NCBI GenBank assembly: GCA_963575655.1
Contig: CAUYTY010000122.1
Coordinates: 1 to 45,632, forward strand
Direction of reading: 5' to 3'
DNA from: Gammaproteobacteria bacterium
Lineage (GTDB): Bacteria; Pseudomonadota; Gammaproteobacteria; CAIRSR01
DNA length: 45,632 nt
Translations under genes and position numbers: made by a program
Shown here: positions 3,314 through 31,201 of the stretch, piece after piece
Layout: each line of letters opens with the position of its first letter
Position numbering within the stretch: position 1 is the first letter of the stretch
The notes under the pieces: generated by a model
Database searches by the model: none
What the model was told of the DNA's origin: nothing
The model's input: only the letters and a program-made list of their open reading frames with translations

Positions 3314-4457
3314 CTAACCTGCGCGTTGGTTAGGGGACTCCAGCTAAATAGCATATTGGACGGATTCTTCTTTAAAAAGTTCTCTGACTTTCTCTGGCGA
3401 TTTTTTTAAATCCTCTAAAAGTTGAGTAGCTTTATTTTTTAACTCCTCCACATTACGAATAAGGTGACGCGCAATTCCTTGTGTCTTAATATTGCTCCAT
3501 ACTAGCTCGACAGGATTAAGGTGTGGAGAATAGGTGGGAAGAAAGAATATTTTAACCTTTCCATTTGTCGTCTCCAGATATTCCTTAACTACTTTTGCAT
3601 GATGGGCAGAATACCCGTCTGTTACAATATAGATGGGGCATGAATTCTCTTGAGCCAAAATTTTTAGATATTCAACAAACGCACCACCATTGAGCGATGA
3701 GGGACCTATTTGGAAATGCATCTTTCCTTCAGAAGTTATCGCAGCGATCATATTTATGCGATAACGTCCACCAGTGGAGGGAATTATGGGAGTTAAACCT
3801 TCTAGCCCCCAAGTTGTACCCGCGTGATAATCGGTGCGCGCCCCAGCCTCATCAAGAAAATAGATTATAGCACCCTCATTACTTGCCAACTCTTTGATTC
3901 TAGGAAACTCTTTGTTAATCCAATTATCTACTGAAAATTGGTCCCTCTCTATCGCACGATATACTGGCCGTTGTGGAGTTAAATTAATGCGGCGCAAAAA
4001 ACGGCCCACCGCGGAACGACTCATGTAAATAGAAAATTTCCTCTCTATTAATGTCTTTATCATTTCAGTTGTCCATAAGACTGTCGAGAATTCAAAATCC
4101 AATGGGGTAAATGCGCACAGCCAGAATACGAGTATTCCTTCTTGCTGTTCATTGATGAAGGATTTTCTTCCAGGGACAGGTTTCGCATTTAACGTAGCTA
4201 GACCCATCTCTTTTGCCTTCTTCACCCATTCGTACACCTTCGATCGGTGCATACCGAAAATCTCGCCCACCTCCCTAGGAGACATTCCTTTACGTACAGC
4301 TTTTACTGCTTGAAGCCTTATATACTCAAGGGTAGAGTGATCGAGAGAACGTCCATCAGAATTTTTCATAATTTTAGCAATTTCATGTCTTATTTTTTGG
4401 TTGGACTAATAATAGATTATTTTTACTTGCTTGTCCCCTAACCAACGCGCAGGTTAG
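3314..4457 (-). mobile_element. IS630-family element, complete copy A (1144 bp)
   Basis: It is flanked by TA at 3312-3313 and 4458-4459, the usual IS630 target duplication. The ends read CTAACCTGCGCGTTGGTTAG and are themselves near-palindromic. It encodes one intact 341-residue transposase. The same 1144-bp length and an identical transposase occur at 17292-18435, suggesting recent activity. Confidence 0.95.
3344..4369 (-). CDS. IS630-family transposase (copy A)
   Basis: 341 residues. The N-terminus holds a helix-turn-helix (EVGEIFGMHRSKVYEWVKKA) and a second winged segment (RKFSIYMSRSAVGRFLRRI). The C-terminal DDE_3 catalytic domain shows IYFLDEAGA, IVTDGYSAHH and the LPTYSPHLNPVELVW signature with the catalytic Glu. 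The predicted product is identical to that at 17380-18405, so at least one copy is likely functional. The stop lies about 30 bases from the element end. Confidence 0.96.
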   Translation of the reverse strand: MKNSDGRSLDHSTLEYIRLQAVKAVRKGMSPREVGEIFGMHRSKVYEWVKKAKEMGLATLNAKPVPGRKSFINEQQEGILVFWLCAFTPLDFEFSTVLWTTEMIKTLIERKFSIYMSRSAVGRFLRRINLTPQRPVYRAIERDQFSVDNWINKEFPRIKELASNEGAIIYFLDEAGARTDYHAGTTWGLEGLTPIIPSTGGRYRINMIAAITSEGKMHFQIGPSSLNGGAFVEYLKILAQENSCPIYIVTDGYSAHHAKVVKEYLETTNGKVKIFFLPTYSPHLNPVELVWSNIKTQGIARHLIRNVEELKNKATQLLEDLKKSPEKVRELFKEESVQYAI

Positions 4458-14405: not shown

Positions 14406-15293
14406 ATGGCTGACATCGACATCGACCCCACTTCTGCACCTTTTCCCCAAAGTCCGGTAGTCCCTGCGCTCTTGAGCGGTGACGCCCCTCTCCAATTCCG
14501 TTGCCACCCAGACATTGCCTGTTTCAATGCCTGCTGCAAGAACATTGATATCAGCCTCACTCCCTACGACATTCTCCGTCTACGGCAACGCCTGAAAGTC
14601 AGCAGTGACGATTTCTTAACGCGCTATACCATCCCCTACGAGATCGAGAAAGAAGGATTGGTGGGGATCAAATTGCGCCCGGTGGAGCAGGGTACGGCCT
14701 GCCAATTTATGACAGAAAAGGGTTGTGGCGTTTATAGTGATCGTCCCACCGCTTGTCGTTATTATCCGTTAGCCTTGCTCTCGCTACGCCATCAGGATGA
14801 GTATACCGACCGTAGTGCCTATGCCTTGGTCCAAGAAGATCACTGCCACGGTCACCAGGAATCCCGGCTCCTCACCATTGATGAATATCGTCAGGAACAG
14901 GGCTTGACAGAGTATGATGAACTCGCACGTGGTTGGCGTCAGCTCATCCTCAAAAAGAAATCCTCCGGTCCCACGGTCGGTAAACCGAGCAAGCGTAGTT
15001 TGCAACTCTTCTTTATGGTCTGCTACGACCTAGACCGCTTCCGGCAATTTGTGAATAATCCCGGATTTCAGGAGGTCTATGACCTTTCTGAAGACCTTTT
15101 GCAAACACTTCGTACGGACGATACCGAATTAATGTTGTTCGGTTTTCGGTTTCTGCTCCAGATTTTGTTCAACGAGACCTCGATTGCCCTTAAAAGCGAC
15201 GCCGTAGATCGACGCTTAGCACGCAAACAAGAACGAGAGACGGTAATGGAAACCATCGTAAGTAAGGTAGCTCCCACTCCCGTTGCTGAATAG
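14406..15293 (+). CDS. YkgJ-family cysteine-cluster protein
   Basis: 295 residues. It has the CxxxCxxxCC-type cluster of the YkgJ/Fe-S family (C-H-P-D-I-A-C-F-N-A-C-C). Further conserved Cys lie in TACQFMTEKGCGVYSDRP and TACRYYPLALL. The family is thought to bind zinc or an iron-sulfur cluster; no enzyme activity is assigned. It has its own leader after the apr terminator, so it is probably a separate transcription unit, although its place beside aprBA is suggestive. The C-terminal 100 residues are helical and charged with no motif I recognise. Confidence 0.8.
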   Translation: MADIDIDPTSAPFPQSPVVPALLSGDAPLQFRCHPDIACFNACCKNIDISLTPYDILRLRQRLKVSSDDFLTRYTIPYEIEKEGLVGIKLRPVEQGTACQFMTEKGCGVYSDRPTACRYYPLALLSLRHQDEYTDRSAYALVQEDHCHGHQESRLLTIDEYRQEQGLTEYDELARGWRQLILKKKSSGPTVGKPSKRSLQLFFMVCYDLDRFRQFVNNPGFQEVYDLSEDLLQTLRTDDTELMLFGFRFLLQILFNETSIALKSDAVDRRLARKQERETVMETIVSKVAPTPVAE

Positions 15294-15783
15294 GTGGGAA
15301 TATCAAATGTAAAATCTAACCTCTAGTCATATTGATGGTTGGGTTACTAAAAAATACGGAGACATATTACCTAGTAATGCTTCCCCTTGCGGTGGTGTAC
15401 TGCGGCGGTATGGTTACGATGGCTACCCAAAATAGATCATCCATCGCCAAGATCGTGCGGATTACTCTAAATCTAGATTCGTTTCCAATGACTTGAATCT
15501 GTTGATCAGGCCCAGAATGGTACTAGAAATACTTGATATGGCGCATTTACCGTGGGGGGTGTGATGAACATAGTTATTGATCTTCCAAGAGCCGACTATT
15601 GTGTTGAGTCCGGGTCGGCAAATAGGGCCGAGGCTTCAAATTATTGGCATTCGGTGTGGAGGGCGAACAAGAAGAAGCTTGAAAAAGTCTGCACCCCTAA
15701 TCCTAGGGTGAGTTTGAATTTTCCTAACACCAAAGAATTGATCTTCGTTTGATGTGTCAAACAATGGTGCTGGTTTTTCTGAA
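15294..15783. other. intergenic, no supported gene
   Basis: A frame of 66 codons at 15552-15752 has no ribosome-binding site worth the name and no recognisable motif, so it is not called. The remainder appears non-coding. The stretch ends at the strong hairpin at 15784. Confidence 0.5.
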
Positions 15784-15840
15784 AAGGGGCCAGACTCGTA
15801 TTATTTCTCAGAAATAATACGAGTCTGGCCCCTTCTTTCT
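15784..15840. terminator. 25-bp perfect hairpin, bidirectional terminator-like
   Basis: The arms read AAGGGGCCAGACTCG... and its exact complement over 15784-15808 and 15810-15834, with almost no loop, then CTTTCT. A related hairpin lies at 20777-20830 after the DUF928 gene. On the minus strand it is followed by a short T-run (AAAA at 15782-15785), like the terminator of that gene. Confidence 0.75.
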
Positions 15841-16000
15841 CAAGTTGTTGCCTATGGCCCAATGTAACTGTCATGCTACCCAGAATCAGAGTTTCGGGCT
15901 ATGGCGAACGAGAAGTCTTATCGTACTCAAGTTGCCACCGATGACTTAGTTCAACCGTCTAGAAGAGTCGTAGAACCTGAGCCCCTTCCAGAGTCGTGAA
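15839..16000 (-). repeat. flanks of a deleted DUF928-type gene (ghost locus)
   Basis: The bases 15839-15925 match the 3' untranslated region of the DUF928 gene (20834-20910), sharing CAATGTAACTGTCATGCTAC-type sequence. The bases 15931-16000 match the region just upstream of that gene (21543-21615), sharing CACCGATGACT and GAGTCGTAGAACC. Here the two flanks are joined with no coding sequence between them. It is read as a paralogous locus whose coding region was lost. Confidence 0.6.
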
Positions 16001-16344
16001 TTCCTGCGGAACTAAATCCAGAACTAAGTAGATGTCCTTTTGTCTCATTCTGTTTCACATTGAATACCCAACACATGAGTGGTATCGTGCTGGCCGTATT
16101 TGAGCTACCCAGTTAAGCCGCAACGGCATAGAAATCAATGTTCACCGGGGCAGGCATCTCACCCTACATTTTATGGATAGCCATCTGTGAAACGAATGAA
16201 CGAGCCTGCTCTTCGTCGGACACACCGGCATGTGTCGCGGATTAAATGGATAGCCCGTATTGGCTAGACGTGGTTGGCTTTCCTGTTCCTTACTTGATAC
16301 GTTTGCCCCTTACTCACCACTTCCTGAAAATACTGGAGGATGCT
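16001..16344. other. leader region of the RCC1-repeat gene
   Basis: About 340 bases without a supported gene. A short stretch near 16214-16250 (TGTCGCGGATTAAATGGATA) resembles 34618-34645 and would read S-R-I-K-W-I-A-R in one frame. A good ribosome-binding site (CTGGAGG) ends 5 bases before the ATG at 16345. Confidence 0.5.
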
Positions 16345-16729
16345 ATGTTCGCTAAATTTATAGGTCGCCTGTCGCTATTTCTCTGTTTTCTAATGCTTTG
16401 GTTGAATGCTGGGATTGTTACGGCCAATACCGAAGTATCCACAATTAATAGAACTACCTTTGTTTCTGTCACACTGCAGAAGAATAGCGTCTTCTTTTCC
16501 GTGAACGGGTTGTCTTACGAAGACATAACGGTATGGACTTGGAACGGAGTAGATATCACCGTGCACCTACAAGCCGCTGTGTCAGACGGGTCAGCAAAGG
16601 TACATAGTACTACCAAAGGTTGTAGCGTTGAATGGAGAAACCCTCCAGTAGAATTAGAATTGAATAGTAGCGGCGTTTTAGGGGTGAACGCGATGGCTTT
16701 AAGCGTAACCGCCGATAGTGGGTGGTGTC

Positions 16730-17289
16730 TTACGTTGACCTAACTGGCAGAGCGGGAAAGGAAATCCACTCATGAATTGTCCAAACATGATCGGTAAGAC
16801 CAGCAGCCATGGCTGGTGTTCGATCTTTCCATTTTTCACGATCATCCTTAATACGCAGTGTTCGCACAGGCCAGCGGAAATTGTAGCTGAGTGCTACAAA
16901 GTATGTCATTGCATTGTGCATTTCCCAATTCTTTGAGAAACGGTAACTCTTACGGGTCTTCCGGGCATTCTGGCCACGGTCGGTGGCATTGAGACGTTCG
17001 ATGAATGCGGTATTGATAAAGGAGCTGACTATCGAGCGCGCCAGCCATAGGATCAATAACTCCAGAGTACCGAAGACCACGGTTCGTTTCACATCCACAA
17101 CTCGACCCTTCTTGCGAGTTTTACGAACGGTGGCATAACACAAGTCATTTGGCATGACTCGCTTTGGGTTCGGAGGACGACCTGGCCCTGGTCGTTTAGG
17201 TTGTGCCACTTCGGTTGCGTAAACTTTCTCAATTGCAGTTTGGTAAGGGGCGTGTTCGTCGGATGTAAGTAACAAATCAGTTCTTCCTT
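16730..17289 (-). pseudogene. IS1-like transposase, C-terminal half
   Basis: The frame reads LLTSDEHAPYQTAIEKVY, A-T-V-R-K-T-R-K-K-G-R-V-V and then FIERLNATDRGQNARKTRK, followed by YRFSKNWEMHNAMTYF and RTPAMAAGLTDHVWT. These are the conserved C-terminal blocks of a DDE transposase of the IS1-like group. Across the IS630 insertion the frame extends upstream as N-S-R-Q-M-R-T-A-G-V-K-G-R-T-D (18438-18480). It then joins out of register to the zinc-ribbon start (C-P-D-S-R-I-R-G-K), so the central DDE region has been deleted. Not functional. Confidence 0.8.
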
Positions 17290-17291
17290 TA

Positions 17292-18435
17292 CTAACCTGC
17301 GCGTTGGTTAGGGGACAAGCAAGTAAAAATAATCTATTATTAGTCCAACCAAAAAATAAGACATGAAATTGCTAAAATTATGAAAAATTCTGATGGACGT
17401 TCTCTCGATCACTCTACCCTTGAGTATATAAGGCTTCAAGCAGTAAAAGCTGTACGTAAAGGAATGTCTCCTAGGGAGGTGGGCGAGATTTTCGGTATGC
17501 ACCGATCGAAGGTGTACGAATGGGTGAAGAAGGCAAAAGAGATGGGTCTAGCTACGTTAAATGCGAAACCTGTCCCTGGAAGAAAATCCTTCATCAATGA
17601 ACAGCAAGAAGGAATACTCGTATTCTGGCTGTGCGCATTTACCCCATTGGATTTTGAATTCTCGACAGTCTTATGGACAACTGAAATGATAAAGACATTA
17701 ATAGAGAGGAAATTTTCTATTTACATGAGTCGTTCCGCGGTGGGCCGTTTTTTGCGCCGCATTAATTTAACTCCACAACGGCCAGTATATCGTGCGATAG
17801 AGAGGGACCAATTTTCAGTAGATAATTGGATTAACAAAGAGTTTCCTAGAATCAAAGAGTTGGCAAGTAATGAGGGTGCTATAATCTATTTTCTTGATGA
17901 GGCTGGGGCGCGCACCGATTATCACGCGGGTACAACTTGGGGGCTAGAAGGTTTAACTCCCATAATTCCCTCCACTGGTGGACGTTATCGCATAAATATG
18001 ATCGCTGCGATAACTTCTGAAGGAAAGATGCATTTCCAAATAGGTCCCTCATCGCTCAATGGTGGTGCGTTTGTTGAATATCTAAAAATTTTGGCTCAAG
18101 AGAATTCATGCCCCATCTATATTGTAACAGACGGGTATTCTGCCCATCATGCAAAAGTAGTTAAGGAATATCTGGAGACGACAAATGGAAAGGTTAAAAT
18201 ATTCTTTCTTCCCACCTATTCTCCACACCTTAATCCTGTCGAGCTAGTATGGAGCAATATTAAGACACAAGGAATTGCGCGTCACCTTATTCGTAATGTG
18301 GAGGAGTTAAAAAATAAAGCTACTCAACTTTTAGAGGATTTAAAAAAATCGCCAGAGAAAGTCAGAGAACTTTTTAAAGAAGAATCCGTCCAATATGCTA
18401 TTTAGCTGGAGTCCCCTAACCAACGCGCAGGTTAG
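17292..18435 (+). mobile_element. IS630-family element, complete copy B (1144 bp)
   Basis: It is flanked by TA at 17290-17291 and 18436-18437. Length and encoded protein are identical to copy A at 3314-4457, in the opposite orientation. The two copies are therefore a long inverted repeat that could mediate inversion of the 13 kb between them. Confidence 0.95.
17380..18405 (+). CDS. IS630-family transposase (copy B)
   Basis: 341 residues, same predicted protein as copy A: two N-terminal helix-turn-helix segments, then a DDE_3 domain with LDEAGA, VTDGYSAHH and YSPHLNPVE. It starts at the ATG about 88 bases into the element and stops about 30 bases before the end. The reading frame is intact. 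It sits antisense to the IS1-like transposase it interrupts. Confidence 0.96.
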   Translation: MKNSDGRSLDHSTLEYIRLQAVKAVRKGMSPREVGEIFGMHRSKVYEWVKKAKEMGLATLNAKPVPGRKSFINEQQEGILVFWLCAFTPLDFEFSTVLWTTEMIKTLIERKFSIYMSRSAVGRFLRRINLTPQRPVYRAIERDQFSVDNWINKEFPRIKELASNEGAIIYFLDEAGARTDYHAGTTWGLEGLTPIIPSTGGRYRINMIAAITSEGKMHFQIGPSSLNGGAFVEYLKILAQENSCPIYIVTDGYSAHHAKVVKEYLETTNGKVKIFFLPTYSPHLNPVELVWSNIKTQGIARHLIRNVEELKNKATQLLEDLKKSPEKVRELFKEESVQYAI

Positions 18436-18460
18436 TAACACCAGCAGTTCTCATTTGCCG

Positions 18461-19051
18461 CGAATTCGAGAATCAGGACAGTCTACGTTGCGACAAGAAA
18501 ATACCTCAATTGGGTGTGTAGCCATCACTTTAACCTCAAGTAATTGAGAATAAAAATACGCACTACGCTCGTAAAACAACAGCATTACTTTTTGTAACTG
18601 ACAGAATTATAGAATGTTCTTGTCGTAGCGTAGGTTAGGTCAACGTAAGGCACCACCCGAATTCGGAAATCAGGACAATCTACGTTGCGACAACAAAATA
18701 CCTCAATTGGGTGTGCAGCCATCACTTTAACCTCAAGTAATTGAGAATAAAAATACGCACTACGCTCGTAAAACAACAGCATTACTTTTTGTAACTGACA
18801 GAATTATAGAATGTTCTTGTCGTAGCGTAGGTTAGGTCAACGTAAGGCACCACCCGAATTCGGAAATCAGGACAATCTACGTTGCGACAACAAAATACCT
18901 CAATTGGGTGTGCAGCCATCACTTTAACCTCAAGTAATTGAGAATAAAAATACGCACTACGCTCGTAAAACAACAGCATTACTTTTTGTAACTGACAGAA
19001 TTATAGAATGTTTTTGTCGTAGCGTAGGTTAGGTCAACGTAAGGCACCACC
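18461..19051 (-). repeat. three tandem 197-bp units made of an IS1-like end
   Basis: Units end at 18657, 18854 and 19051 (period exactly 197). Units 2 and 3 are nearly identical and unit 1 slightly diverged. On the minus strand each begins with the element's terminal repeat GGTGGTGCC..., has an AT-rich promoter-like stretch, and starts a reading frame M-A-A-H-P-I-E-V-F-C-C-R-N-V-D-C-P-D, the zinc-ribbon start of the transposase. Each copy is cut at the same codon and joined to the next terminal repeat. Confidence 0.9.
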
Positions 19052-19079
19052 CGATAGTGCAGCGGAAGACACCGCTCAA

Positions 19080-20510
19080 GTGTACAAGCAGATCAGTGTA
19101 GGCTCAGTGCATACGTGCGCCCTGAAAATGGACAACACCTTACGATGCTGGGGGTCGAACGAATTCGGCCAAGCTACCACGCCCATAGGAAGTTTCAAGC
19201 AAGTCAGCGCTGGGGGGGATGCACACCTGCGCCCTGAAGGCGGACAATACCTTACAGTGCTGGGGGGGATAATAGGTACGATCAAGCTACCCCACCCGCA
19301 GGAAGTTTCAAGCAAGTCAGTGCGGGCTATTCTCACTCCTGCGCTCTGAAGGCGAACAACACCTTACAGTGTTGGGGAAATGACTGGTACGGTCAAACTA
19401 TCTCGCCATCAGGAAGTTTCAAGCAAGTCAGCTCCGGTTATCGTCACGCCTGTGCCCTGAAGGCGGATAACACCTTACAGTGCTGGGGGTATAATGGTTG
19501 GGGTCAAGCCAACTCGCCCGCAGGAAGTTTCAAGCAGGTCAGCGTAGGTGAGTCACACGCCTGCGTTCTGAAGGCGAATAACGCCTTACAGTGCTGGGGG
19601 TATAGCCGGTACTGGGAGAATAACTGGTACGGTCAAGCCACTCTGTCCACAGGAAGTTTCAAGCAGGTCAGCGTTGGGGGGGGGGGACCTGCGCCCTGAA
19701 GGCAGACAACACCTTACAGTGCTGGGGAGGTCTCTACGGTGGCCAAGACATCCCACCCTCGAGAAGTTTCAAACAGGTCAGCGCTGGGGGGGCGCACACC
19801 TGCGCCCTGAAAACGGACAACGCTCTACAGTGCTGGGGGAATAATGGTTTCGGCGTAGCTACCCCGCCCTCAGGAAGTTTTAAGCAAGTCAGTGCAGGCT
19901 TAACACACACCTGTGCCCTGAAGGCGGACAACACCCTACAATGCTGGGGGGACAATGGTTTCGGCCAGGCTACCTCGCCCGCAGGAAGTTTCAAGCAGGT
20001 CAGCGCAGGCTTTGAGCACACCTGCGCATTGAGGGTAGATAACACGTTAGTTTGCTTGGGAAATGACGGGGATGAAGAGAGTCCTAGTCAAGTCATCATC
20101 CCAGGAAGTTTCAAACAGGTCAGCGTTGGGTCATGCATCTGTGCCCTAAAGACGGACAACTCTTTACAGTGCTGGGGGGGGCTAGCTACCACGCCCACAG
20201 GAAGTTTCAAACAGGTCAGCGCGGGCTATTTTCACGCCTGCGCCCTGAAAGTGGACAACACCTTACAGTGCTGGGGGGAGAATGGTTTGGGTCAAGCCAC
20301 TCCACCCTCCGGAAGTTTCAAGCAGGTTAGTGCGGGTGAGTTACACACCTGTGCCCTGAAGACGGATAATACCTTACGGTGCTGGGGGGACAATAGTTTA
20401 GGTCAAGCCACCCCGCCCGCAGGAAGTTTTAAGCAGGTCAGCGTGGGCCGTGGTCATTCCTGCGCCCTGAAGGTGGACAACACCTTACAGTGCTGGGGGC
20501 CAGATACCGT
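19080..20510 (+). repeat. 13 tandem RCC1-type repeats (about 110 bp each)
   Basis: The units share AGGAAGTTTCAAGCAGGTCAG, TGCGCCCTGAAG and TTACAGTGCTGGGG. Core positions are near 19140, 19255, 19364, 19480, 19590, 19720, 19830, 19940, 20050, 20165, 20270, 20380 and 20490. Each has about 37 codons. The middle of each unit (e.g. S-N-E-F-G-Q-A-T-T-P) varies more than the ends. The high DNA identity favours unit gain and loss by recombination. Confidence 0.9.
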
Positions 20511-20776
20511 TTATAAATAACGACGGGGAAAGTAAACACTAAACGAAAAAGCCCACAAGCTATAAACGGTTTGAGGATTTTTTCTATTTTTGTAGTCAGT
20601 GGTTGACCTTCTTTCGTTGCGATCCAGTGCTAACCGAACTTGGAGATTTCCTTTACGACCATAATTGCGGACCACCAACGTAAAGTTGCGCAGAAGGCAG
20701 AAAGTAGGTTGGCCAACGAAAGAGGCCGAAAGAACTAAGTGGACGTCCTTTTTTGAAATCAAAGAGGCAGAATGAT

Positions 20777-20832
20777 AAAAGGGGCTGGACTCGCATTATT
20801 CCTAATAATAATACGAGTCCAGCCTCTTTTTT
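20777..20832. terminator. hairpin terminator between convergent RCC1 and DUF928 genes
   Basis: The arms AAAAGGGGCTGGACTCG and its near complement lie at about 20777-20800 and 20808-20832, followed by TTTTTTC on the plus strand and by T-rich sequence on the minus strand. It is placed to end transcripts from both sides. Related to the hairpin at 15784. Confidence 0.75.
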
Positions 20833-20910
20833 CAGGTTGCTACCTATGACCCAATGCAACTGTCATGCTACTCCGAATCGTTAGTTTTTGGCTATAAAGA
20901 ATGGGAAGTC

Positions 20911-21522
20911 TTATTGCAAAGCAATACCTACTTGCGCCAGCAGATCATCGACCTGTTCAGATTTATTCTTCTCAATCAGTTTCTCCAGGGCGTCATACCA
21001 ATAACCCGCTTCGGCTAAATCTGCGACGTTATTTAGCGGTAGAGTTGGTGTTTTCCGGGAGATCGTGGCATTTGAAAATAAAAGGTTAGCGTCTGGTTCT
21101 TTATCGCTGGATAACACTACCGTCCAACGATATATCTGATCCGGTTTCAATTTTACTCCAAGCTCAGAAAGTCGGATGACCTGAATGCCGGGGGAATTAA
21201 CTGTACCTAATTTCACGTCCAATACGGTTTGGTTTTCGTCCTCTAACTCCAGAGAAAACTCCACGTTATACAGGGACAAAGTGGAACTGTACCAATACAA
21301 CGTCGGTGCTGCACGCTTAGTAAGGCCGGTCTGCGGAGGCGCCAACAACTGAATCTTAGGTACTTTTTGAAAGCTGCGCGTACCTCCACCAATCCGCTGA
21401 GTGGGCGCTCCCAGTTGGGCAGGTCTAAAAACAATAAGTTTTTCTGCACTAGCCGGAAAGGTTGAATTCAGAAACATCAATAGAATAAATAATGAACCTC
21501 GGTTCAGCGTTTTATTCTGCAT
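20911..21522 (-). CDS. DUF928-family exported protein
   Basis: 203 residues. There is a signal peptide (M-Q-N-K..., hydrophobic LFILLMFLNSTFPASA, likely cut after A-S-A). The conserved DUF928 core follows: APTQRIGGGTR, LLAPPQTGLT, APTLYWYSS and the IYRWTVVLSSD segment. The C-terminal GYWYDALEKL helix is also typical. Function of the family is unknown; in cyanobacteria and filamentous sulfur bacteria it is often found beside CHASE2/CHAT or repeat proteins. Here it is convergent to the RCC1-repeat gene. A deleted paralogue appears to have existed at 15839-16000. Confidence 0.88.
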   Translation of the reverse strand: MQNKTLNRGSLFILLMFLNSTFPASAEKLIVFRPAQLGAPTQRIGGGTRSFQKVPKIQLLAPPQTGLTKRAAPTLYWYSSTLSLYNVEFSLELEDENQTVLDVKLGTVNSPGIQVIRLSELGVKLKPDQIYRWTVVLSSDKEPDANLLFSNATISRKTPTLPLNNVADLAEAGYWYDALEKLIEKNKSEQVDDLLAQVGIALQ

Positions 21523-21651
21523 GTGTATTCTCCAGATTTAGTTAACTCAAGTCGTCACCGATGACTCAATCCAAGCGTTTAAAGGAGTCGTAGAACCCTG
21601 AGGCCCTTCCAGCCCGCGTGGGATGCGGTACGCTCTTTCTATAAACGCACG

Positions 21652-21999
21652 TTGATTATAGCGACCACCGGCAACTGCTTCGGGAAATTCCCGATGACCG
21701 ACAACATTCGCTTGTTGGATGACAATTATGAAATCACTGAACCGCCATACGCATTACCTGCCGAGGTACGTAGCGCAACAATGATCGCTTCCGAAATATC
21801 CATGGGCTATGCCCCAGTCAATGTCGTCGATGATGTCGGTAAAAGCTATACCCTAGCGCACAAAATACATTTATTTTAAAAAGATGGTGTCCTTGAACCG
21901 TCTCTTAGATTAGATGCCTTGCCACCTCACGGAAAGAATAAAATATTCCCAGGTATTGAGAATGCCGCCGATTTATATTTAATTTGCGAGCCAACTTGA
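21652..21999 (+). pseudogene. unrecognised degenerate gene with one in-frame stop
   Basis: A frame from about 21652 (TTG-type start, no clear ribosome site) gives 75 codons (D-N-Y-E-I-T-E-P-P-Y-A-L-P-A-E-V-R). It ends at a TAA at 21877. The same frame continues with sensible codons (K-D-G-V-L-E-P-S-L-R-L-D-A-L-P-P-H-G-K) to a TGA at 21997. The even residue composition on both sides suggests one former gene of at least 115 codons. No family recognised. It might be a fragment of a longer protein whose start was lost upstream. Confidence 0.4.
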
Positions 22000-22124
22000 C
22001 TAAAATTGGCAGCGCTAAAGACATTTCCGGTAATCGATCAGGCGCTCCCGAGGAGCGCTGGCAGAGATGTCGGCGCTCCTCAGGGAATGAATGGCTGCAC
22101 TACCTGTGGCTTACGTCCTGTCCA

Positions 22125-24152
22125 TTATTTTTTAGAGACGTTTAATAGCAGTACCGTTCCACCCCACCCCTCAGGATAGGGACCTTTACGCTTTGCCTCG
22201 CGCCACGGAAGCCCCTCTAGGGCCGTGCGGAGAGTAGCAAGAGGGGCGTCGTATTCCAGACCGGTCTTGGCTAAGGCCACCAATCCCAGAGGTTCAATAA
22301 ATTGCTGGCGGGCAACGTTACCTACCCATAACGGTATCTCGCCGGGAGTAAGTTGTGCATCTGCCTGCCATAGACGCAATACCAAACGTGTTGGCGAGGT
22401 TTCCGTGCCTGAGTAACAACAGATCATCCGTAATACCTCTTTGCGACCATCATGGAAATAAGGCAATACCGGCAACTCGATAACTTCCGGCTTCGGGATG
22501 AAAAGCCGCAGAACACTTGCCGTATCCAATGGGGCAGGGACACGCCAACCGTAAAGCTCCAAGTAACGACGTAATTCCATCGGATCACCTGCCACCTGAA
22601 AGGTCATGGGGGTATTGGAATTGCCTCTCCAATCCACCCGATAACCTGCCAATTCCGCCCAATCTTCGTCCCACCAACGCGAGGCATTCAAAATGCGTTG
22701 CGGATGACGGACTTCATAGCGTATTACGTGCAGACTGTGGTGGGTCGTTATATATCCGCTGCCGGTAATCAAAACGGTCAGAAGTAGCACTCCTCCGAGT
22801 TCCCGCAGATTCAACGAGGAGGATGCACGGCGGCGATAGGCAATTCCTATCAATCCCGACCAAATTGCCCCCAGGGTTATCCCTCCGACTATGTCGGACA
22901 ACCAATGGCGTCCCAAGTAGAGGTGAGAGATCGCCACCAAGATGATCCACACGGCGGCAATCGTATAAGGCAAACGGCGGAGCGTAGGGGGCAATTCCCT
23001 CGCTACCAGCACGGCCAAGAAACCATAGAGGGTACTCACTAACGCGGCATGGATACTGGGAAAGGAATCACTCATCTCCCCCAAATAGATCTCTGGTCTC
23101 GGTATGGCATCCGGTAACAAATAATTGAAGCCAATTCCGACCAATACCGCCATCGCCACCGCTGCTGCCCAATGGGTTGCCGCTAACCAGTGTCGTCGGA
23201 CCATAAGCCAAACCAATCCCGTACCGGCTACCGCGAGATTTACTGGGGCATCCGCCAACTCGGAGATGAATATCATCACCTGGTCGGCCCAGGAGGTACG
23301 TAGCCCATGCAGCAGGTAATAAACCTGATAGTCCAATCCCAGTGGCTGGGATTGGCCAATCTCTCCCAATAAAATGGCAAAGAAGATCCATCCTCCGAAT
23401 AACAGCGTTACACCCAATTCCACCAAACCTTTCAATTCTGGGTGTTTCGGATCGAGTAGACCGACGGTCACGTCTTCGAACAAGGGGTTGGCCTGCCCCC
23501 AGGCGAGCAGATGCAGGACCATGCGTTGCGTTCGTGGCTGGAGCAGGGCGTAGATCCGACGTACCAACCATGCGGTCGCCCAAACCACCAAGAGCAGCAG
23601 GACCAGGATCATCATAAGGCGGGTCGCGACCTTAGAGGCCAGGGTCAGAGACGCCCCAAACACTACACCGGGTAGGATGTACGCAGGTGCCCAGGTGATG
23701 GCAGAGAGGAAGTTTGCCCAGTAGAAGCGTCCCACGGGCATCCCCATCATCCCTGCTACTGCTGGAATAATGGGGCGTACTGGCCCAGCAAAGCGTCCAA
23801 AAACGACGCTCTTGGCCCCGTGACGGACAAAAAAGCGTTCAGCCCGCCCCAACCACTCCGGGTGATTGTTAAACGGCCACATCGTGCGGAGATGTTCGCG
23901 ATAATGGCGACCAATAAGGTAACTCACCCCATCGCCCACCAAGGCGCCGAGAATGGCCCAACTCAACGTTGCCCACAGCCCCATACCCCCCAAGGCCACC
24001 AAGGCACCAATGCCGAACATAATGATGGTCCCAGGAACAAATAATCCCACTACCACCAGCGATTCGGAAACGTTGATCAAAAATACCGTGATGCCGGCCC
24101 AATGAGGGTGAAGATTGAGCCACTCCACGGTGGCGGTTACATATCCATTCAC
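22125..24152 (-). CDS. DedA-PAP2-LssY fusion membrane protein
   Basis: 675 residues. Residues about 1-210 form a DedA/SNARE-associated domain (VVGLFVPGTIIMFGIGAL, G-R-F-A-G-P-V-R-P-I-I-P). From about 260 to 450 there is a PAP2 phosphatase domain in membrane helices, with the P-S-I-H motif and SHLYLGRHWLSDIVGG carrying the catalytic His and Asp. The K...RP motif is represented only by I-P-R-P. The last 180 residues are a soluble LssY-type C-terminal domain. Known relatives are thought to act on lipid or undecaprenyl phosphates and envelope homeostasis; LssY is linked to type I secretion regions in Legionella. Transcribed after aspS, separated by a terminator-like structure. Confidence 0.85.
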   Translation of the reverse strand: MNGYVTATVEWLNLHPHWAGITVFLINVSESLVVVGLFVPGTIIMFGIGALVALGGMGLWATLSWAILGALVGDGVSYLIGRHYREHLRTMWPFNNHPEWLGRAERFFVRHGAKSVVFGRFAGPVRPIIPAVAGMMGMPVGRFYWANFLSAITWAPAYILPGVVFGASLTLASKVATRLMMILVLLLLVVWATAWLVRRIYALLQPRTQRMVLHLLAWGQANPLFEDVTVGLLDPKHPELKGLVELGVTLLFGGWIFFAILLGEIGQSQPLGLDYQVYYLLHGLRTSWADQVMIFISELADAPVNLAVAGTGLVWLMVRRHWLAATHWAAAVAMAVLVGIGFNYLLPDAIPRPEIYLGEMSDSFPSIHAALVSTLYGFLAVLVARELPPTLRRLPYTIAAVWIILVAISHLYLGRHWLSDIVGGITLGAIWSGLIGIAYRRRASSSLNLRELGGVLLLTVLITGSGYITTHHSLHVIRYEVRHPQRILNASRWWDEDWAELAGYRVDWRGNSNTPMTFQVAGDPMELRRYLELYGWRVPAPLDTASVLRLFIPKPEVIELPVLPYFHDGRKEVLRMICCYSGTETSPTRLVLRLWQADAQLTPGEIPLWVGNVARQQFIEPLGLVALAKTGLEYDAPLATLRTALEGLPWREAKRKGPYPEGWGGTVLLLNVSKK

Positions 24153-29952: not shown

Positions 29953-30336
29953 ATACTTCAAAATTATGGCAGAAAGTCACCCGATACCCATGTTTGAAGA
30001 ATGGCTACCGCAATATCCAGGTCTGAAACACCACCTTCTGCCCATCATGCAAAAGTAGTTAAGGAATATCTGGAGACGACAAATGGAAAGGTTAAAATAT
30101 TCTTTCTTCCCACCTATTCTCCACACCTTAATCCTGTCGAGCTAGTATGGAGCAATATTAAGACACAAGGAATTGCGCGTCACCTTATTCGTAATGTGGA
30201 GGAGTTAAAAAATAAAGCTACTCAACTTTTAGAGGATTTAAAAAAATCGCCAGAGAAAGTCAGAGAACTTTTTAAAGAAGAATCCGTCCAATATGCTATT
30301 TAGCTGGAGTCCCCTAACCAACGCGCAGGTTAGTAG
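29953..30336 (+). repeat. 384-bp direct duplication, left copy (contains an IS630 3' remnant)
   Basis: It is repeated at 30818-31201 (offset 865). The copy consists of about 83 bases of unrelated sequence (starting ATACTTCAAAATTATGG) fused at 30036 to the last 298 bases of the IS630 element. It ends with the terminal repeat and TA. The short frame M-A-E-S-H-P-I-P-M-F-E-E-W-L-P-Q at 29964 runs into the IS sequence and stops, so it is a truncated start of some other gene. Confidence 0.9.
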
Positions 30337-30817: not shown

Positions 30818-31201
30818 ATACTTCAAAATTATGGCAGAAAGTCACCCGATACCCATGTTTGAAGAATGGCTACCGCAATATCCAGGTCTGAAACACCACC
30901 TTCTGCCCATCATGCAAAAGTAGTTAAGGAATATCTGGAGACGACAAATGGAAAGGTTAAAATATTCTTTCTTCCCACCTATTCTCCACACCTTAATCCT
31001 GTCGAGCTAGTATGGAGCAATATTAAGACACAAGGAATTGCGCGTCACCTTATTCGTAATGTGGAGGAGTTAAAAAATAAAGCTACTCAACTTTTAGAGG
31101 ATTTAAAAAAATCGCCAGAGAAAGTCAGAGAACTTTTTAAAGAAGAATCCGTCCAATATGCTATTTAGCTGGAGTCCCCTAACCAACGCGCAGGTTAGTA
31201 G
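30818..31201 (+). repeat. 384-bp direct duplication, right copy (IS630 3' remnant abutting the kinase)
   Basis: Same content as 29953-30336. The IS630 part is 30901-31198 and the flanking TA is 31199-31200. The right edge is exactly the point where the minus-strand kinase frame is interrupted, so the IS end is a genuine insertion end even though the rest of this IS copy is missing. Confidence 0.9.

Follow-up and report, generated by a model that had tools for sequence, protein, structure and literature searches.

Copy A, a segment of about 200 bases at positions 15782–15992, appears on balance to be what remains of a second DUF928 unit, the gene of which would have been lost by a deletion ending at the tip of a MITE-like element. 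The segment lies in a 45,632-nucleotide stretch of gammaproteobacterial DNA (the window), upstream of a wrecked RCC1-repeat gene, and a DUF928 gene is found 5 kb away within a second, filled copy of the same unit (copy B). From left to right, the unit consists of a hairpin, a first repeat piece (rep1, 35–40 bp), a linker, the gene (in copy B only), a second repeat piece (rep2, 35 bp) and a tail (Table 1).

A global alignment of positions 15760–16060 with 20755–21660, combined with a repeat search, shows that A 15782–15921 corresponds to B 20777–20914 and A 15925–15992 to B 21545–21613. The two blocks are collinear, in direct orientation and about 80% identical over the matched flanks, and the likeness ends at both outer edges. 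Taken piece by piece, the identity between the copies amounts to 81% for the hairpin, 81% for rep1, 74% for the linker, 81% for rep2 and 85% for the tail. At the join in copy A, three bases replace 630 bp of copy B, which comprise the start codon, the ribosome site and the whole DUF928 gene minus its stop codon. No remnant of DUF928 coding sequence was found near copy A or within 15782–15992 (tblastn, E up to 10), and copy A is probably without coding function today.

When the whole 4.22-Mb genome was searched with copy A as the query, the blocks of copy B were recovered with E-values of 9.1e-25 and 6.2e-13. Furthermore, the hairpin, linker and tail scored 31, 20 and 21, respectively, compared to 1, 5 and 4.5 for the best of 2000 shuffles. 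Across the genome, the hairpin (≤3 mismatches) occurs at A and B only, and no match to the linker was found elsewhere. The linker and tail together gave one further, weak match (contig C21, E 0.12), which belongs to a different palindromic repeat with a weak and partial likeness to the tail. Since the homology of hairpin, linker and tail outside the dispersed repeat is far above chance, A and B represent a true duplicated unit. The sequence-only reading had proposed that the flanks of the DUF928 gene recur at 15784–16000, joined without the gene, and the two collinear blocks bear this out as more than a set of short chance matches. It also correctly placed the two loci on either side of the RCC1-repeat gene. 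The genome search that it called for returned no further empty or filled copies of the unit. Its interpretation stands in part, as it had overlooked that both flanks hold the ends of a genome-wide MITE-like family.

Table 1. Features of the two copies and of the segment between them (window coordinates)
Feature	Position	Strand	Remarks
Copy A hairpin, terminator-like	15782..15834	.	Perfect 25-bp inverted repeat; unique to A and B
Copy A 3'-flank piece (rep1)	15835..15876	+	Resembles end of MITE-like family, without TIR tip
Copy A linker	15877..15921	+	Ends in TTAT; the counterpart in B is the stop codon of DUF928 (TTA, read as TAA on the - strand) and one further base
Copy A join, CGT	15922..15924	.	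B has 630 bp with the DUF928 gene here
Copy A 5'-flank piece (rep2)	15925..15960	+	MITE-like end; damaged tip GTACTCAAG vs T followed by AACYCAAG
Copy A tail GAGTCGTAGAACC.TGAGCCCCTTCCAG	15961..15992	+	
22-bp direct repeat, copy 1	16020..16041	+	Just right of copy A
RCC1-repeat gene	16345..20520	+	Parts 16345-16720 and 19052-20520; between A and B
IS1-like element in RCC1 gene	16721..19051	-	Inverted ends, transposase fragment
22-bp direct repeat, copy 2	20731..20752	+	Just left of copy B; 20/22 identical
Copy B hairpin	20777..20828	.	Between convergent RCC1 (+) and DUF928 (-) genes
Copy B 3'-flank MITE-end-like piece (rep1)	20829..20868	+	
Copy B linker	20869..20914	+	Includes DUF928 stop codon, 20911-20913
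DUF928 gene, 203 aa	20911..21522	-	PF06051; putative N-terminal signal peptide (by eye)
Copy B 5'-flank piece (rep2)	21541..21580	+	MITE end; intact tip AACTCAAG, canonical ANNT site (AGTT) before tip
Copy B tail	21581..21613	+	

The 35-bp pieces rep1 and rep2, both present in each copy, resemble each other as well as sequences on other contigs, and are ends of this abundant family. Its 17-bp core, CAAGTTGCYACCYATGR, was found (≤2 mismatches) at 375 sites in the 4.2-Mb genome, compared to 4 for a reversed-pattern control, and at 132, 144 and 1 sites in three relatives. In 75 sites, conservation begins sharply at the tip AACYCAAGTTGCYACCTA, which is preceded by an A at −8 and a T at −5. The genome holds 32 two-ended elements with inverted ends and variable interiors, most commonly 91 bp in length. 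An exact 4-bp target duplication (ANNT) bounds 10 of the 32, where about 0.1 would be expected, and these duplications identify the tip of the family. For rep1 and rep2 of either copy, no inverted partner was found in the window at ≤2 mismatches, each being represented by one end; rep2 lacks its right end. Family members are located at L012, L013, L064 and L082–L101, and in the window at 15841, 15928 and 20833. In one relative (G002), a large number of the sites are close to the ends of contigs, which suggests a longer element in that genome.

Bacterial MITEs are non-autonomous IS derivatives (reviewed in PMC10969869). The family agrees with them in being short (often about 91 bp), in its TIRs and 4-bp duplication, and in having hundreds of copies with no evident coding capacity. 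Around the DUF928 gene, single ends are found instead of whole elements. The analysis also reveals that such a family, MITE-like and abundant, is present in this bacterial family, where it could drive small deletions.

In copy B, the gene-proximal tip is canonical, with AGTT directly followed by AACTCAAG, whereas copy A has TCGT followed by ACTCAAG, the damage falling exactly at the gene-less join. Among 75 copies of the family, a G at −5 is found in none and a T at −4 in three, while 64 have a T followed by AA. The breakpoint in copy A falls within about 2 bases of the MITE tip, the polarity of the change being inferred. At the other end of the 630 bp, the linker of copy A retains the stop codon. 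The best homologue of the DUF928 protein, encoded at L112 in another family of the class, shares 42% identity over residues 23–202 and terminates at the equivalent position (window protein LLAQVGIALQ, L112 protein LLEQVGIQLR), so the stop codon marks the natural end of the gene. The protein of copy B belongs to PF06051 (71.2 bits against a cut-off of 26, residues 45–194), and homologues occur in 11 of 369 genomes of the class, this one included. The genome has one other DUF928 gene (L008, C110:35930–36463), next to a two-partner-secretion transporter-like gene and a CHAT-like gene, both named by reading the proteins.

These observations are best explained by an old duplication, in direct orientation, of the whole unit from hairpin terminator to tail and including the gene; the duplication itself is shown by the 74–85% homology of the non-MITE parts. 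Copy A would then have lost the entire gene and its ribosome-binding site by a deletion that ran from the outer tip of the MITE end, on the upstream side of the gene, to the stop codon (both breakpoints are shown by the alignment, ±3–4 bases). An adjacent deletion at the transposon tip may be the most likely route of this loss, which is a more tentative step than the deletion itself. Both hairpins would have been retained, perhaps as terminators. Recombination between the two MITE pieces was rejected as the cause, as both pieces are still present in copy A. Several points count against this reading. At about 20% divergence, two ordinary substitutions could give the tip of copy A, it is in its own right a coincidence for a deletion to end only a few bases from the stop codon, and no parent transposase was found for the MITE-like family.

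The opposite direction of change, which takes copy A as the ancestral state and has one copy of a duplicated non-coding unit, copy B, receive the DUF928 gene between its linker and its MITE end, seems rather unlikely. The three nearest genomes of the family lack the gene, and its distribution in the class is patchy, as would be expected for a horizontal gain. However, the insert would have had to arrive without a stop codon of its own and to borrow an in-frame one from the linker, and also to restore a canonical MITE tip with its ANNT site at its other end; moreover, any target duplication at the ends of the 630 bp is at most 3 bases long (TTA). The stop codon at the natural gene end and the tip damaged by the join in A, but not in B, both favor loss from copy A. 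The related proposal of DUF928 as a mobile gene that landed at a MITE end, with A as the empty and B as the filled site of an undescribed insertion process, is very improbable. The claim of the sequence-only reading that copy A is the ghost of a second DUF928 gene is accordingly the best-supported one, with the stop codon kept and the tip broken in A and intact in B, while the evidence for the direction of the change, loss in A as against gain in B, is circumstantial. No close relative carries the unit and can serve as an outgroup, so the direction is not polarised. The genes on either side, a cysteine-rich YkgJ-like gene (14406–15293) and a DedA/PAP2-like gene (22125–24152; both named by reading), are conserved in three relatives but located on different contigs, and no part of 15294–22125 turned up next to them in any of the three. 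These relatives therefore do not polarise the change either.

It is distinctly unlikely that the flanks are a non-coding repeat family duplicated apart from the gene, such that copy A never held DUF928 and the similarity is repeat homology only. Both flanks do contain ends of a family present in hundreds of copies, and the first 35 bp of the 5' flank of copy A are closer to a family copy on contig C209 (89%) than to copy B (81% over rep2). Yet this would leave unexplained a hairpin and linker confined to the two copies, the gene's natural stop codon in the linker of B, and the non-consensus states that A and B share within their MITE pieces (e.g. ACCGATGAC and CCCAATGYAACTGTCATG), in the same order and spacing. 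The sequence-only reading had also considered that the RCC1 gene can be excised or inserted as a cassette, a movement that would proceed by recombination involving the direct copies A and B. Their direct orientation on either side of that gene would suit such a process, as would a second, 22-bp direct repeat just inside them (at 16020 and 20731). At the observed divergence, however, the longest exact word common to A and B is 14 bp, neither another RCC1_2-repeat gene nor another empty or filled site was found in the genome, and the RCC1 gene is itself split and frameshifted, which makes the cassette highly implausible.

The putative loss from copy A resembles cases in which one of two gene duplicates disappears, in that the flanks are kept, the coding region is gone and an intact paralogue is present nearby: B retains a member of the DUF928 family (PF06051) and A has no coding sequence. 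Unlike the gradual decay of duplicates, which leaves remnants, the loss would have been complete and clean. Deletions adjacent to IS elements are a documented process (PMC11708052), and the putative deletion is similar to those next to IS150 in the E. coli long-term experiment in having one end at a transposon tip. It differs from them in being deduced from a single old and diverged pair, and in involving a MITE end instead of a full IS. Copy A may offer a legible example of a duplicated gene that was cleanly lost, in a genome rich in IS elements and MITEs and with a MITE tip at the breakpoint. The fossil is real, though of a fairly ordinary sort; it is of interest to specialists in genome decay and unsurprising in kind.

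The hairpin of copy A has perfect arms and a predicted stability of −42.7 kcal/mol (z −11), compared to −36.1 kcal/mol (z −9.8) for that of copy B. A simple terminator scan was positive for both, on the + strand for A and on the − strand for B (the side of the neighbour of DUF928). By eye, the arms of A and B differ at four pairs, of which two are compensated double substitutions (C-G to T-A and A-T to G-C), a third changes to G-T and the fourth is mismatched. The compensated changes fit either retained function or palindrome correction, which two sequences cannot separate. In Rfam, all matches to the hairpin were below threshold and mostly of the microRNA type, such as any long perfect hairpin might give, and it was not taken to be a known RNA. 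An exact match to the hairpin pattern in Aeromonas aquatica lies, by reading, at the start of a glutathione-S-transferase-like ORF and was taken as chance. The hairpin was not found in viral contigs. An assignment of the hairpin or the 22-bp repeat to dispersed REP-type elements was rejected, as both are essentially confined to this locus.

The RCC1 gene between the copies starts at an ATG at 16345 with a signal-peptide-like sequence (by eye), and its reading frame shifts at least three times at or near G-runs downstream (e.g. around 19210, 19262 and 19678). It is best regarded as a wrecked pseudogene, with variable (phase-variable) G-runs or sequencing errors being less likely. The element that splits it is bounded by an 8-bp target duplication, CGATAGTG, at 16713–16720 and 19052–19059, and the match of its transposase fragment to IS1 is weak (Pfam 17.1 bits, below the cut-off of 24.1). 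The right end of this IS1-like element is present in three tandem copies (18461–19054) with a 197-bp period and 97–98% identity. The direct repeat of 22 bp on both sides of the RCC1 segment (AGAACTAAGTRGAYGTCCTTTT) has a weaker third copy on contig C34. Speculatively, it may indicate that A and B were once in tandem, with the RCC1 segment entering between them. Nested within the IS1-like element is an IS630-type element (17289–18438), and one IS630-type transposase is present in identical full or partial copies within 28 kb, at 3344–4369, 17380–18405, 30001–30303 and 30866–31168.
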